Origin: Balneolia bacterium
Lineage (GTDB): Bacteria; Bacteroidota; Rhodothermia; Balneolales; Cyclonatronaceae
Assembly (NCBI GenBank): GCA_022565795.1
Contig: JAIUMA010000001.1
Location: forward strand, 1-64,000
Direction of reading: 5' to 3'
DNA: 64,000 nucleotides
The notes below the pieces were generated by a model. The model had not been told where the DNA came from. It saw only the letters and a program-made list of their open reading frames with translations, and ran no database searches. The position numbers and the translations under genes are program-made. Below are positions 57,023 through 64,000 of the stretch, piece after piece. The first letter of the stretch is position 1, and the number at the start of each line of letters is the position of its first letter.

Positions 57023-60000
57023 ATGCCAACGGATCATAAGACGCTGAACAAATACTTTGCATTTGCCAGTTTCCTATTTGCCTTCATTCTTTACATGCTT
57101 ACCCTCGCTCCCACGGCCAGTTTTTGGGATCCGGCCGAGCGTATAGCAACGGCCTACGGGCTCATGATTCCGCATCCTCCGGGGGCACCTATGTATTTAC
57201 TGCTCGGCAGACTCTTCTCGATGTTCATGCCGGCAGAATATGTTGCATACAGTATCAATATGATGAGCGCCATCTCGTCTGGTATAACCATCATGCTGCT
57301 CTATCTGATTGTGGTGAGGCTGGTTCGGATCATGAATGAAGGGCATCCGGACACATGGAATCCTCTGATGCGTATTGGTATGTACGGAGGCGCATTGATT
57401 GGCGCTTTAACTTTCGCGGCCACCGACAGTCTCTGGTTTATCTCTGTTGAAGCTGAAACCTATGCGATGTCGCTCACTTTTACAGCACTTGTTTTCTGGC
57501 TTGCTTTAAAATGGGCTTCTAAAGCCGACGAACCAGGAAATGAGCGCTGGCTCGTGCTTATAGCCTATCTGGTAGGCCTGGCATTTGGTATTCACCTGCT
57601 GAACCTGCTCGCCATCTTTGCGGTTGCGCTTATAATCTACTTCAGAAAGTTTGAGTTTACCATCACGGGTTTTGCCGCAACAACAGTGCTCTCCATTGTA
57701 GCTTTTCTCGTTATTTTCCCGGGCACCATTATTTGGCTGCCAACGCTTGCTAACGGGATTAGCAATGCTACCGTTGGCCTAATTGGTCCGGGAATTTTCA
57801 TGATGCTGATTCTCGGTATGCTTTCTGCCGGGATCTATTACACGCACAACAAAAAGCTGAAAGTAGCCAACTACATTATTGTAGCATATACGGCTATTAT
57901 GATTGGTTATTCGAGCTATGCGGTGATTTTTATCCGTTCGATGTCAGACCCTGCCATTGATCAGAACAACCCGGATAATATCGAACGCTTCACAAGCTAC
58001 ATAAAGCGTGAGCAGTATGGCTCGGCTCCGCTATTGTCCGGGCGAAGCTTCGATAACACAATCATGGATATCAATCGGGACGGCGACATTCTCTTCCCAA
58101 GACGTCACTCCTCACAGCCTTCGCATATGGCTGTATATGGACAGTACAATAGCAATCTGGATTTTTTCATCAGATATCAGCTTGGGCACATGTACTTCCG
58201 TTATTTCAACTGGAATTTTATCGGTAGACAGGCCGACATACAGGACACGCCTTCCTATTTTGGTGTATTTACGGCCGATGAGCGGTATGCAGACAATCCC
58301 GCTAATAATTTCTACTGGTATCTGCCCTTCCTTCTTGGATTGTTCGGACTCATTTATCACTCTGTTCGAGACTGGAAACGGGCTTTATCGGTACTTGTTC
58401 TCTTTGTAATGACGGGGATTGCCATTGTGGTGTTCCTCAACCAAACGCCGATGCAGCCACGGGAGAGGGATTATTCATATGCGGGCTCATTCTTTGCATT
58501 CTCGATCTGGATTGGTATCGGAGCTGTTGGTTTGCTCGATATGCTTCGAACGGTTATCAAAAATAAGTTTGCTCTGCTCGGAGCCTTGTTTGTGATGTAT
58601 CTGCTCGTGCCCCTGCGGGTGTTAACTGAAAACTATAACGACCACGACCGAAGCAGACAGTTTGTAGCACCTGATTACGCATATAACCTGCTAAACTCAG
58701 TCGAGCCCTACAGTATTCTCTTCACGAACGGAGATAACGATACGTTTCCGCTTTGGTTCTTACAGGAAGTCTACGGCATTCGAACCGATGTGCGGATAGT
58801 CTGCCTCAGTCTTTTGAACACACCGTGGTATATAGATCAGGTGAAGAACCGCTGGAACTACGACTCTCCACCGGTCAAGCTGTCTTATACCGATCGCGAA
58901 ATTCGTGATATTGAGCAGAAGTTTAGGTTCGAGCGGGAAAGTGATTTTCACAGGCCCGGTACCGTGCGAATTCCGTTCGACAGAGAACGTTTTGCCCGCA
59001 TTATAGCTGATGAGCGACAGCCCGGGCAAATCAGCATGCAGGAGCATATAGAATCGGGGAGCCTCGAATGGCCATCAGATCTGCACAAGCCTGAGTTTAC
59101 TTTCCACACGCCACTTGAAGAATTTGAAGATGAGATTGCATTCCGACATGAGGGGCAGGTTTTATTCTCAGACGGGCAGCAGACTTTTCACTACACCCGC
59201 GTTCAGGATGATATCGTGCTCGACATCGTAAGAGAAAACCTCAACGAGCGGCCGATATACTTTGCCATCACGGTTGCCTCTGATGCCAAGCTTGGCATGG
59301 AAAACTATCTTCGTCTTGAAGGTAAGGCGTTCCGTGTCATTCCAAAGTTTCATGAGGAGGCTTTCGGTCATTTGGATACAGAAATTCATGCATCCAGGCT
59401 CAATCAGTTCAGGCTGCGCTATGTGAATGAGGAAGGCAATTATTTCGATCAGAACATTCGTCGGATGCTGGATAATTATCGTACGATTATAACGCGTCAG
59501 GCAAATGCGTACATCGGTCGTGGAGATAACGAAGAGGCAAACCGCTGGCTTGTTTGGGGTGAGGATCTCATTCCGTTTACAACCGTAACTCCCGATCTTA
59601 CATCGGTTCTTACCTATGCCCTTCGCTATGCCCAGGCTGGTAATGCAGAAGATGGCAAACGCCTGGCTGATGAATTCCTGCCTCGTTTTATGGACGAATT
59701 AGGTCGGGCACTTCGAAATATGGATAGAACCGAAGATGAAATCGCACGGCTCGAGCAGCAGCTTCGTGATCCGTCTACCCGAACCAACACCCAACGACGG
59801 GCAAGGCTACAGGGCCAAATGCAGCAGCTGGATAATGATCTTCGCGGACATCACAGGACATACTCAAGTAATCTTTCCAGACTTGTGGTAATGCAGCATA
59901 TTTACTTCATTACAGGTAACAGCGCAGAAGCTGAGGCCATTGCTACGGAAATTAATAGAATGGTGGGCACTGAAACCAACTTCCCGCGCACTGAGTCTGA

Positions 60001-60034
60001 AAATGCCGAAGCGTTCAGCCGTATATTTATATGA
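57023..60034 (+). CDS. DUF2723 multispanning membrane protein
   Basis: The 1003 residues start with a membrane helix and the family's PTASFWDPAERIATAYGLMIPHPPGAPMYLLLGRLF, with acidic residues that resemble catalytic Asp/Glu of GT-C glycosyltransferases. About ten more helices follow to residue ~540 (ending near VLFVMTGIAIVVFLNQTPMQPRERDYSYAG), then a soluble tail with periplasmic features and a helical coiled section near 910-960. DUF2723 proteins are thought to be membrane glycosyltransferases; the human homologue TMEM260 is described as a protein O-mannosyltransferase, as I recall. Substrate here unknown. It is monocistronic. Confidence 0.88.
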   Translation: MPTDHKTLNKYFAFASFLFAFILYMLTLAPTASFWDPAERIATAYGLMIPHPPGAPMYLLLGRLFSMFMPAEYVAYSINMMSAISSGITIMLLYLIVVRLVRIMNEGHPDTWNPLMRIGMYGGALIGALTFAATDSLWFISVEAETYAMSLTFTALVFWLALKWASKADEPGNERWLVLIAYLVGLAFGIHLLNLLAIFAVALIIYFRKFEFTITGFAATTVLSIVAFLVIFPGTIIWLPTLANGISNATVGLIGPGIFMMLILGMLSAGIYYTHNKKLKVANYIIVAYTAIMIGYSSYAVIFIRSMSDPAIDQNNPDNIERFTSYIKREQYGSAPLLSGRSFDNTIMDINRDGDILFPRRHSSQPSHMAVYGQYNSNLDFFIRYQLGHMYFRYFNWNFIGRQADIQDTPSYFGVFTADERYADNPANNFYWYLPFLLGLFGLIYHSVRDWKRALSVLVLFVMTGIAIVVFLNQTPMQPRERDYSYAGSFFAFSIWIGIGAVGLLDMLRTVIKNKFALLGALFVMYLLVPLRVLTENYNDHDRSRQFVAPDYAYNLLNSVEPYSILFTNGDNDTFPLWFLQEVYGIRTDVRIVCLSLLNTPWYIDQVKNRWNYDSPPVKLSYTDREIRDIEQKFRFERESDFHRPGTVRIPFDRERFARIIADERQPGQISMQEHIESGSLEWPSDLHKPEFTFHTPLEEFEDEIAFRHEGQVLFSDGQQTFHYTRVQDDIVLDIVRENLNERPIYFAITVASDAKLGMENYLRLEGKAFRVIPKFHEEAFGHLDTEIHASRLNQFRLRYVNEEGNYFDQNIRRMLDNYRTIITRQANAYIGRGDNEEANRWLVWGEDLIPFTTVTPDLTSVLTYALRYAQAGNAEDGKRLADEFLPRFMDELGRALRNMDRTEDEIARLEQQLRDPSTRTNTQRRARLQGQMQQLDNDLRGHHRTYSSNLSRLVVMQHIYFITGNSAEAEAIATEINRMVGTETNFPRTESENAEAFSRIFI

Positions 60035-60118: not shown

Positions 60119-60577
60119 ATGATTCATACCTTCACCGCAGAAAACATTGAGGAAATTACCCGTGTTTTGAGCACGCAGCCTAAAAAAACGGGTGATGTGT
60201 ACCGTTTTGCCATTGAGCCCTCCGAAGGCGATTACAAGACCGTAATTGAGATTCATCTCGGGCTTGAGGTCGAAGGAAAGAACACGAACATCGTTTCAGT
60301 TTACGCCCACAATGTATTTCTTCAGCTGCATAATTGTACGGCTTTTGTATCCAGCGAAACGCTTCAGCAGGTTACTTTTTTTGGCAAAATAGGCGGACAA
60401 ACCACAGGTCTCATCATAGAAAAAAGCGGCGGTGTGAGTTTATATGCTAATGTTGATGATTCCCTACTTAATGGTGACTTCACCAAACTACCCCCTGAAA
60501 TTATGATGTGCAGCGTAGCTCTTTCTCTAACAGAATCGGTAGATTTTGAGGGATTCACTTTCGACGAGGACAATTGA
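60119..60577 (+). CDS. Protein of unknown function upstream of ybeY
   Basis: The 152 residues contain no signal peptide or membrane segment; the sequence is beta-rich with acidic ends (MIHTFTAENIEEITRVLS, DYKTVIEIHLGLEVEGKNTNIVSVYAHNVFLQLHNC, DFEGFTFDEDN). I recognise no domain. Its last codons overlap the ybeY start (TTGA), and ybeY overlaps smg, so this unknown belongs to a coupled gene chain related to RNA processing. The ordinary codon use and the coupling support that it is real. Confidence 0.7.
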   Translation: MIHTFTAENIEEITRVLSTQPKKTGDVYRFAIEPSEGDYKTVIEIHLGLEVEGKNTNIVSVYAHNVFLQLHNCTAFVSSETLQQVTFFGKIGGQTTGLIIEKSGGVSLYANVDDSLLNGDFTKLPPEIMMCSVALSLTESVDFEGFTFDEDN

Positions 60578-61014
60578 AGCCAAACGCAATTGAAATTATA
60601 GTTGAGAACACCACAGAACTCGACGTATCTGTCGATGAAGACGTGGTCGCTGAAGTAGCTGAACTCATGCAGCAAAACGAGAACGTTCGTTTCTCACTTC
60701 TCGAGGTTGTATTTGTAGATGAAGGGGAAATTTTAGACATCAACAGAGAACACCTTCAGCACGACTACGTTACAGATATTATTACCTTCCATTATCACGA
60801 GGATGATGAGCCAATCGAAGGCACGCTTTTTTGTTGTGCGCCGCGTATAGCCGAACAGGCTGTAGAGTTCGAAAGCGCTCCGGAGACGGAGTTCACCCGA
60901 ATTATTATTCACGGCATGCTTCACCTCTGTGGTTATGAAGACAGCAGTACGGAAGACAAGGCCCGCATGACAGAACTTGAAAATGAGTATTTAAAGCAGT
61001 TAGACTATTTATGA
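60574..61014 (+). CDS. ybeY: rRNA maturation endoribonuclease YbeY
   Basis: YbeY is a zinc hydrolase needed for 16S rRNA 3'-end processing and ribosome quality control. The 146 residues have EILDINREHLQHDYVTDIITF and the metal motif HGMLHLCGYED (His113, His117), with Asp123 where many bacteria have a third His. Asp there is, as I recall, common in Bacteroidota, so activity is expected to be retained. The start has to be TTG 60574 (MKPNAIEIIVE), since no ATG precedes the core; it overlaps the previous stop as TTGA. Its own stop overlaps smg as ATGA. Confidence 0.93.
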   Translation: MKPNAIEIIVENTTELDVSVDEDVVAEVAELMQQNENVRFSLLEVVFVDEGEILDINREHLQHDYVTDIITFHYHEDDEPIEGTLFCCAPRIAEQAVEFESAPETEFTRIIIHGMLHLCGYEDSSTEDKARMTELENEYLKQLDYL

Positions 61015-61457
61015 GAACAAACGTAATCGATCTTATTATTCAGATGGTGCGTCAGATTCGTGGCGGACAGTCAATCAAAGAAATCGATTTGGGTTCTTTC
61101 CCTAATGCCGATAAATCTGAAGCATCGGCTGCCTATTCATGGATTTTACAAAAATCTGAGTCCGGCCAGCTGAACGCTGCCAGTCCAAGCGATTCCTCAA
61201 AAAACCTGCGGATTCTCCACGCAGCTGAGCGTACTATTATTTCTACTGAAGCCTATGGGTATCTCATTGAGCTCTTCAATATCGGCATCATTACACATAC
61301 GGATATGGAAAGCATTATTGAGAGCGCTATGATGACCAACTTCGAAAAAGTCGGGCTCGACAGAATGAAAGAACTTGTGGCCAAGCTGGTTTTCGGTGCA
61401 GGTGAAAAATCTCATCCCGGCAGCATATATCTCAGCGGCAGCGAAAAAATCAATTAA
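61011..61457 (+). CDS. smg: Smg/DUF494 family protein
   Basis: The 148 residues match the DUF494 (Smg) family: RTNVIDLIIQMVRQIRGGQSIKEIDL at the start, STEAYGYLIELFNIGIITHTDMESIIESAM in the middle and a C-terminal region that lacks the usual WLRR ending. The molecular role of Smg is not established. In Proteobacteria smg lies between dprA and topA, and here a topoisomerase-like gene follows 52 bases later, so the linkage is kept. It overlaps ybeY by four bases (ATGA). Confidence 0.8.
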   Translation: MRTNVIDLIIQMVRQIRGGQSIKEIDLGSFPNADKSEASAAYSWILQKSESGQLNAASPSDSSKNLRILHAAERTIISTEAYGYLIELFNIGIITHTDMESIIESAMMTNFEKVGLDRMKELVAKLVFGAGEKSHPGSIYLSGSEKIN

Positions 61458-61509: not shown

Positions 61510-62937
61510 ATGAAGCTCAGCTCCTACACCCTGCTCATTGTTGAATCCGGGGTGATTGCTCGCGCGATTCGGGCTTTGGAGATACCCGGTCTCGAAGTGA
61601 TGGCTACTTCAGGTTATGCATGGTTTCCGCAGATTCATCCGGAAACCGGAAGGCTCGTTGCCAAAGCGAATCCTTCACAGCTTGATTTCAGGAAAGAGCT
61701 TAAGAACAAAGCTCAGTATGCCATCCGTATCATCATTGCAGCTGATTCCGATCCGAGCGGTAAGTTTATCCAAAATGCCATTTTCCGTTTTCTGAAAAAG
61801 GATGACCGCGTATTCACCGCCAATTTAACGGCCGTAGGAACCGACTCTGTAAACCGAATGATAGAGTCGGCATCTCGGATTTCAGAATCCCAAACCACAG
61901 CGCTTGAACGATATTTTAGATGCCGGGGTGTGCTTTCAGACGTCGTTCGTAAAAAAGTCGGTTCTAAATATACTCTCGCAGAAATCTTAGCCGTGAGCGT
62001 ATTGATGTCCGAAAATCATTTTACTACTTTTTCAGGAGTTAATTCGGGGAAACTGTACTCATCTCTCGCGCCTGTTTGCTGTGAAGCTAATGAAGACATC
62101 AAAGCTTCAGCATTAGTCGGAAACACGCATCAACTTAAAGATCAAAGGTTTTGGCTTCCAATTCGGAAACCGGCTTCTACGGCTTTTCTGATGCCTTCAG
62201 CTGCAGGAAGCTATGCGGACTCTCAGGATATTTTGAACCGGTTGTTTGGCTACTTTGATCCTGAACTTGGTTTCGGACTTATCAGCTATCCCCGAACATC
62301 AGCCAATGGATATTATCATGAAACGTGGGAGAAACTATCTGGTCAGGTTCAAAAGACTGAAGGAGCGGATGCCGTTTTAACTCCTGCGTTGCGCAGCATC
62401 CATCCTGCTGCTCAGGGGCACGAATCACTGCACGTTACGGATACGAATCTTGAGCCAAATCAGCTCCGTCCTTTTCTCAGGCGAGATCTTTTCGATATGT
62501 ATCGCACGCTGTACAGAATCACAATGTCATCAATCAGGCCCCCCTCTGAAACCTCTGCTGAGTACATGCTTAAGTCAGATTCAGGCGCAACGTTTTTCAG
62601 TCCGGAGCAGTCAGAACCTCTTGAAGATAGCGTTTTGAAGCCGATATTGACCACTGAGCAATTCATGGAGGCACTGCTAGATACATTTTGGGTGAAAGCT
62701 TCATCAATCGGAAAGACAATGGATCGTATTGCCGGTTCTCATCTGTTCTGCCTTTCAAATGATCCCGTTCCTAATATTTCCCTGAATACGTGTAATGAGC
62801 TAAACTTGCTCCGTGAATTCTCGTTTAAAACAGGACAAGTAGCCGAAAGGCTGAGGGAATCACTAGAATTATCAAAGAATGAGTTCGGTAGCACTTTCCG
62901 CGAATGCAGCCGTGAATTAAACGCTTTATCATTTTGA
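61510..62937 (+). CDS. Divergent type IA topoisomerase-like protein
   Basis: The 475 residues follow the type IA topoisomerase order in degenerate form: LLIVESGVIARAI (Toprim, Glu12), IIIAADSDPSGKFI (Asp79, Asp81; the third acidic residue of DxDxxE is Ser), the hinge RCRGVLSDVVRKKVGSKYTLAEILAV, GLISYPRTSANG with the catalytic Tyr260 and Arg262, HESLHVTD (His304, Glu305) and YRTLYRITMSS. The zinc-finger C-terminus is missing and the usual total length of 700-900 residues is halved. It is preceded by smg and ends overlapping DUF445 by one base. A DNA-binding or regulatory role is as likely as relaxation. Not a fragment: the frame is complete. Confidence 0.72.
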   Translation: MKLSSYTLLIVESGVIARAIRALEIPGLEVMATSGYAWFPQIHPETGRLVAKANPSQLDFRKELKNKAQYAIRIIIAADSDPSGKFIQNAIFRFLKKDDRVFTANLTAVGTDSVNRMIESASRISESQTTALERYFRCRGVLSDVVRKKVGSKYTLAEILAVSVLMSENHFTTFSGVNSGKLYSSLAPVCCEANEDIKASALVGNTHQLKDQRFWLPIRKPASTAFLMPSAAGSYADSQDILNRLFGYFDPELGFGLISYPRTSANGYYHETWEKLSGQVQKTEGADAVLTPALRSIHPAAQGHESLHVTDTNLEPNQLRPFLRRDLFDMYRTLYRITMSSIRPPSETSAEYMLKSDSGATFFSPEQSEPLEDSVLKPILTTEQFMEALLDTFWVKASSIGKTMDRIAGSHLFCLSNDPVPNISLNTCNELNLLREFSFKTGQVAERLRESLELSKNEFGSTFRECSRELNALSF

Positions 62938-64000
62938 TGAATAAATCACCCCGAAATAGCAGCGATGAAAAGGAAGAGGTTAGCATTCATAACCTCTTTT
63001 CTAAGCATATCGAGCGACGGTTTGAAAATTCAATAAATGAAGAAGTTTTAAGTCTCAAGCCAGAAGATAAACAACAGGCCGGTTTAGGTTTACGGCTGCT
63101 TAAAATCTATCCCTGGCTACTTGGACTGTTTTTTTTGTTTTCATTTTGGTGGGATTTTGATGGTCGTTTGATTACGATCGGAGAATATGCTCTTCCGCTG
63201 GAAGGACTTCTTCGGATTTTGGCCGTCAGCGGACTGATTGGCTTCTTTACCAACTGGGTTGCAATAATCATGCTTTTCTATCCGAGAAAGAGGCGCCCTG
63301 TTCTGGGGCAGGGACTTATTCCTGCTCAAAAGAACAGAATTGCCCTGCGTCTTGCGGCCGCTGTCGAAAGAGAGCTGATTAACCCTGAACTCATCAAACA
63401 AGAGTTTATCGATAACGGACTGCTTCAAAAATACACAGACATCCTAATCTGGGATATCAAAGCGCTGACATCCGATAAAGACTTCAGAAATGATATAACT
63501 ATTCTGTTTGAACAGTATATACGGCAGGGACTTCAGGATCCAAGAGTAAAATCCAATCTCGTTCAGCAGGCTGAGGAAGTTATTATGCAGAGCGTAAAGG
63601 ACAGCAAAGTAGAGCGATCAGCGCTTAAACTTTATTTGGTAATGAAGGGCAAAACGCTGAAAGATTTGCTTGATGAAGCCATAGCTAACCTCCCCGACAG
63701 GATATCAAATGCAGCTGAGCCCATAAACGCCCTGATTGATACCATACCGGCACGAATGAGAAAAGACAGGTTTCGGCTCGAACAAATCTTTGTAACCGTT
63801 CTGAGCCGGATTATCGATCAGATTGATATCCGGAAGATTATTGAGGAGAACATCAATCGATATGATGAAGAAAAGCTGGAGCGCATCATAAAAGGCTCCA
63901 CAGACACGCATTTGAACTACATAAAATATTTGGGCGCGGTAATCGGTTCAGTCGGTGGGCTTGTAATTTGGAATCCACTGGCTAGCCTAAGCTTATTGGC
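62937..64000 (+). CDS. DUF445 family membrane protein (cut at the right edge)
   Basis: At least 354 residues from ATG 62937 (MNKSPRNSSDEKEE). After a charged lead it has membrane helices near residues 60-75 and 90-115, including the DUF445 hallmark GFFTNWVAIIMLFYPRKRRPVLGQGLIPAQKNRIA. A long amphipathic helical region follows, and another hydrophobic stretch starts at the window edge. DUF445 (YheB/YjiN-like) proteins are inner-membrane proteins of unknown function. It shares a base with the topoisomerase-like stop (TGATG), so these genes are translationally coupled. Confidence 0.85.
   Translation, partial: MNKSPRNSSDEKEEVSIHNLFSKHIERRFENSINEEVLSLKPEDKQQAGLGLRLLKIYPWLLGLFFLFSFWWDFDGRLITIGEYALPLEGLLRILAVSGLIGFFTNWVAIIMLFYPRKRRPVLGQGLIPAQKNRIALRLAAAVERELINPELIKQEFIDNGLLQKYTDILIWDIKALTSDKDFRNDITILFEQYIRQGLQDPRVKSNLVQQAEEVIMQSVKDSKVERSALKLYLVMKGKTLKDLLDEAIANLPDRISNAAEPINALIDTIPARMRKDRFRLEQIFVTVLSRIIDQIDIRKIIEENINRYDEEKLERIIKGSTDTHLNYIKYLGAVIGSVGGLVIWNPLASLSLL

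Follow-up and report, generated by a model that had tools for sequence, protein, structure and literature searches.

The locus studied here raises a question: is a protein of only 475 residues, which carries the motifs of the type IA topoisomerases, a working enzyme, a regulator that has lost catalysis, or what is left of an ordinary topA? The gene (61510-62937, forward strand, ATG start) lies close to the end of the window, i.e., the whole stretch of 64,000 nucleotides that was analysed, and a family profile and the predicted fold both designate it as a compact type IA topoisomerase-like gene. An earlier note on this DNA had proposed either an additional, specialised type IA enzyme with a damaged metal site, from a family not yet described, or a DNA-binding regulator in partnership with its neighbour Smg. 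We confirmed that the open reading frame is real and that all motif residues sit where they had been placed. The first part of that reading is supported by what follows, while the damage to the metal site and the partnership with Smg are not.

The gene belongs to a cluster of the order TMEM260-like/DUF2723, 152-aa protein, YbeY, Smg, topoisomerase, and DUF445, all on the forward strand. The two upstream genes, one encoding a DUF2723/TMEM260-like membrane protein (57023-60034; Pfam PF11028, E 5.7e-60) and the other a conserved 152-aa protein outside any Pfam or NCBIfam family (60119-60577), are constant members of the cluster by their synteny. They are followed by the YbeY endoribonuclease gene (60574-61014; PF02130, E 1.7e-27); by the Smg/DUF494 gene (61011-61457; PF04361, E 4e-12), which overlaps ybeY by four bases; by the topoisomerase gene; and by a DUF445 gene (62937-64000; PF04286, E 1.1e-24), which continues beyond the window end and whose ATG overlaps the topoisomerase stop (TGATG). 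From the 152-aa protein through DUF445, the genes overlap or stand close together, and the Pfam matches agree with the adjacency to DUF494/Smg, YbeY, and DUF445 described before. The 152-aa protein is found beside ybeY in nearly all Balneolales clusters seen, with 55-96% identity in the compared pairs. In YbeY, an Asp replaces the third His of the zinc motif; the same holds for all Balneolales YbeY looked at, and we therefore do not link this oddity to the short gene.

Sequence and predicted fold of the short protein

Taken alone, the window protein gives weak family matches (TIGR01051 topA, E 3e-7; Topoisom_bac, 0.004; Toprim, 0.03) and scores under the Pfam cut-offs, which we counted against an active accessory enzyme. 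The TIGR01051 equivalog cut-off of 456 bits is reached neither by this protein (30 bits) nor by four of its relatives (25-58 bits). Since a single-protein search of solved structures returned no match, a family profile was needed, and it was made from 13 homologues, i.e., divergent full-length copies obtained by whole-genome searches of relatives. Against solved structures, this profile matches S. mutans TopA with an E value of 4.6e-24 over positions 5-455 of 465; other TopA rank next, then reverse gyrase (5e-11) and topoisomerase III (Topo III, or TopB), for which the match is marginal (0.15 or worse), one member of the family matching PRK07726 at 7e-5.

The AlphaFold model of the short protein (pLDDT 87.8, pTM 0.85) tells the same story. 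Foldseek aligns it with E. coli TopI (E 4.5e-20, probability 1.00), the type IA core fold spanning the full chain, and the best PDB matches are bacterial TopI (TM 0.55-0.64, E down to the same 4.5e-20). The alignment runs end to end, yet the whole-chain rmsd is about 10 Å and the TM about 0.6, and we counted these two values against an active enzyme. The fold search of the BFVD gave no matches other than phage fragments and large type IA enzymes of viruses. Thus, when TopA, Topo III, and reverse gyrase are compared, the sequence profile and the predicted fold both choose bacterial TopA first. A chance resemblance to some Toprim protein can be set aside in view of the whole-length profile match, the fold match, and six catalytic positions conserved in 37 of 37 homologues.

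The short protein retains every part of the core, as the alignment extends through Toprim, the nucleophile domain, and the stretch that corresponds to GRPSTY. This core is nevertheless 90-115 residues smaller than that of TopA and, when aligned with it, does not preserve the SAGRVQ motif; everything C-terminal of the core is missing. Indeed, the protein ends with the core, zinc or Topo_C repeats were not found in Pfam scans, as expected from the absent zinc-finger tail noticed earlier, and the C-terminal domains that bind the T strand are lacking both in the sequence and in the predicted fold. With bacterial TopA (TIGR01051, PF01131 + PF01751), which gives the best sequence and fold matches, it shares the fold, the domain order, the Toprim Glu and DxD, the Tyr-x-Arg, and the His-Glu; it differs by its 475 residues against 850-890 in Balneolales TopA, by the loss of the C-terminal domains, by a Pro-Ser in place of the Arg-Glu that follows the DxD, and by the absence of Lys13. 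Topo III is likewise compact, with little C-terminal extension, and spells its nucleophile motif Tyr-Pro-Arg. The topoisomerase domain of reverse gyrase has a homologous core, whereas the short protein has no helicase-like domain and another gene context.

The active site

When the short protein is aligned with TopA of solved structure and with the resident TopA, the type IA motifs fall in TopA order. Glu12 (codon 61543-61545) corresponds to E. coli TopI Glu9, the Toprim residue of Mg2+ binding and acid-base catalysis; Asp79-x-Asp81 (61744-61752) to the Mg2+ site Asp111-x-Asp113; Ser83 (61756-61758) to Glu115, which it replaces; Tyr260-Pro261-Arg262 (62287-62295) to the nucleophile Tyr319 and Arg321; and His304-Glu305 (62419-62424) to His365-Glu366. 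Across 37 homologues (median pairwise identity, 29%), Glu12, Ser13, Asp79, Asp81, Gly84, Tyr260, Arg262, and His304 are invariant, and Glu305 is found in 35. There are about 17 invariant columns in some 450, and the six catalytic positions are all among them, for which the hypergeometric chance is of the order of 1e-9.

Other positions have changed. The third acidic position is always Ser (34) or Ala (3) and never acidic in the 37 homologues. We counted four features against an active enzyme: the Arg114-Glu115 pair of TopA is Pro/Ala-Ser/Ala here; the position of E. coli TopA Lys13 is Ile, Met, Leu, Val, or Thr and Lys in 0/37; that of Topo III Lys8 is Ser in all 37; and the Arg of GRPSTY is retained in 9/35 homologues only. 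In the structure of M. tuberculosis TopI with DNA and Mg2+, Glu24 and Asp111 hold the ion, as does Asp113 via water, and the Glu115 equivalent is not named as a ligand (PMC6101483); a review likewise assigns the type IA metal to the Toprim Glu and the DxD pair (PMC7587558). Nothing usable was found in the literature on Glu115 mutants. Because the Toprim Glu and the DxD pair are all kept (37/37), and Ser83 replaces a residue that is no named ligand, the "damaged metal site" of the earlier note is better described as a site altered beside the metal ligands and not demonstrably damaged. Lys13 of E. coli TopI is cited, in a passage of PMC6101483, as required for cleavage, and from the alignment its absence is a loss that could matter more than the change to Ser83. 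Arg61, which is invariant, or some other side chain may occupy the position of this lysine.

The loss of several catalysis-related TopA residues (Lys13, Arg114, Glu115) and the very fast divergence described below are what one would expect of a pseudo-topoisomerase, i.e., a DNA-binding regulator deprived of catalysis. We hold this to be quite improbable, since Tyr260, Arg262, and His304, together with Glu12, Asp79, and Asp81, stay invariant while the rest of the protein diverges to about 29% identity, a pattern not expected after loss of catalysis, and since dN/dS is far below 1.

A reduced ring and lost DNA-contact residues could also leave a core that cleaves and rejoins without productive strand passage, or that is specialised for RNA, nicking and resealing single-stranded DNA or RNA in transcripts or rRNA, which would fit its place after ybeY. 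The shorter core, the lost SAGRVQ motif, the clustering with an endoribonuclease, and the published type IA RNA cleavage in M. smegmatis, which is independent of the Toprim Glu (PMC7587558), all go in this direction. This is rather unlikely, however: a gene neighbourhood is weak evidence for a shared pathway, membrane proteins also belong to the cluster, which in most genera is complete with no topoisomerase in it, and the Toprim Glu is invariant although RNA cleavage would not need it.

Distribution and evolution in the Balneolales

The complete topA sought elsewhere in the genome was found on another contig (G000:C36), where it encodes a normal TopA of 870 residues; the short gene is hence no assembly-derived piece of a sole topA. 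All carrier genomes with a completeness of 90% or more also have a full TopA. With a normal TopA present and the key catalytic residues kept, from whose conservation we infer catalysis, the short protein is probably a working accessory enzyme. It was also considered as a replacement for TopB, an idea that was dropped, no TopB being found in any Balneolales genome, with or without the short gene.

With the 13-member profile, the short gene was detected in 42 of 129 Balneolales genomes, in 8 genera, and in none outside this order among 245 genomes of the class; in a phylum sample of 395 genomes, the matches outside the order are long TopA proteins or pieces of them, with far lower scores. A family of short homologues therefore exists across the Balneolales and is absent from the genomes sampled beyond. 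Its full-length copies measure 441 to 518 aa. A single-protein scan of genome contigs gave no match; an alignment search of such contigs gave 22 loci, nearly all labelled Balneolales, including Rhodohalobacter. The gene was not found in viral contigs and phages, and plasmids yielded only ordinary topA. We found no description of such a family in open-access papers.

In all clusters examined, the short gene occupies the same slot. Carriers of the Balneolaceae (f4) have no Smg in the cluster, and in one genus of a third family (f3), a different gene stands where DUF445 would be. In non-carriers of families f4 and f5, DUF445 directly follows ybeY or smg at the same place, leaving the slot empty. 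As many relatives do without the gene at an otherwise unchanged locus, it appears dispensable. In one genome (G107), ybeY and DUF445 are separated by some 600 bases (L104:5260-5870) in which no clear gene is seen, and where the sister genome G108 has the topoisomerase; a degraded copy there is possible and could not be shown.

This brings us to Smg. A dprA-smg-topA cluster is described in Neisseria and other Proteobacteria (PMC5817196), and in the window, too, a homologue of the type IA topoisomerases directly follows a DUF494/Smg gene. On the contrary, the topoisomerase of the window is a short paralogue, dprA is absent, and the cluster reads P152-ybeY-smg-topo-DUF445. DUF494/Smg passes the Pfam cut-off in 34 of the 129 Balneolales genomes, which contrasts with the 2017 statement that smg orthologues occur only in Beta- and Gammaproteobacteria (PMC5817196). 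Smg and the short gene are found together in 12 of the 129 genomes where about 11 are expected by chance, and in one of the 12 (G111), a bin that is probably mixed, they lie on different contigs. Co-occurrence across the order being at chance level, and the Balneolaceae homologues having no Smg beside them, a partnership with Smg finds no support. G111 itself, a metagenome bin, holds two versions of the 152-aa/ybeY cluster on separate contigs (L107, L108), one with Smg and the other with the topoisomerase.

The short gene evolves fast. Compared with the window copy, relatives within the genus have 32-49% identity, against 81-95% for TopA and 48-89% for the cluster neighbours. In nearby pairs, many of which have synonymous sites near saturation, dN/dS is 0.10-0.28 for the short gene and 0.02-0.05 for TopA. 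At amino-acid sites, the short gene changes faster than TopA by a factor that ranges from several to about sixteen. From these sequence comparisons, the gene is under relaxed but clear purifying selection. The gene tree, within the limits set by its long branches, follows taxonomy: all f4 copies group together, and f1 as a single clade is not rejected (p 0.48), which fits vertical descent with repeated loss. One copy, from a record titled Chitinophagaceae (L072, LKNA01000010.1), falls inside the Balneolaceae branch, and the record is probably misnamed.

Fast evolution and patchy presence could also be those of a decaying duplicate of the resident topA heading for loss. This is very improbable and already largely refuted by the conserved frames: the 37 reading frames are intact or truncated by contig ends and keep a steady length, dN/dS stays at the low values given above, and the active site is invariant across three families. 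Nor is the family close to the local TopA, which its profile scores at only about 25 bits per stretch, against up to 67 bits for some Bacteroidota TopA.

A probable compact accessory enzyme

Taking sequence comparison and model together, we find it likely that the short protein is a compact and catalytically competent type IA topoisomerase, either a descendant or a sister of bacterial TopA, and that it would act as an accessory to the full-length TopA and form a lineage-restricted subfamily. Tyr260, aided by Arg262 and His304, would attack a single-stranded backbone and form a 5'-phosphotyrosine link; a second strand would then pass through a small ring, between cleavage and rejoining; and Mg2+ held by Glu12, Asp79, and Asp81 would position the 3'-OH for rejoining. 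Without C-terminal domains, such an enzyme should be distributive and should favour substrates in which single-stranded stretches already exist; in this it would resemble topoisomerase III more than a processive relaxer of supercoils. A bolder proposal, which we hold to be unlikely, is that of a new type IA subfamily that has a smaller ring and dispenses with the catalytic lysine of either TopA or Topo III. Its members might act on single strands or RNA instead of relaxing supercoils, and one order would have acquired or kept them as fast-evolving accessories within a cluster of housekeeping genes.

If the short protein is indeed such a compact accessory topoisomerase, its size would be unusually small for a type IA enzyme of cells, and it would offer a natural test of the parts that the core can drop, i.e., the C-terminal domains, the acidic residue in third position, and the lysine that the passage cited above reports as needed for cleavage. 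The fast amino-acid change around a frozen active site would allow one to read the minimal catalytic set from sequence, and the dispensability of the gene would bring genetic tests within reach in Rhodohalobacter or similar strains that are in culture.
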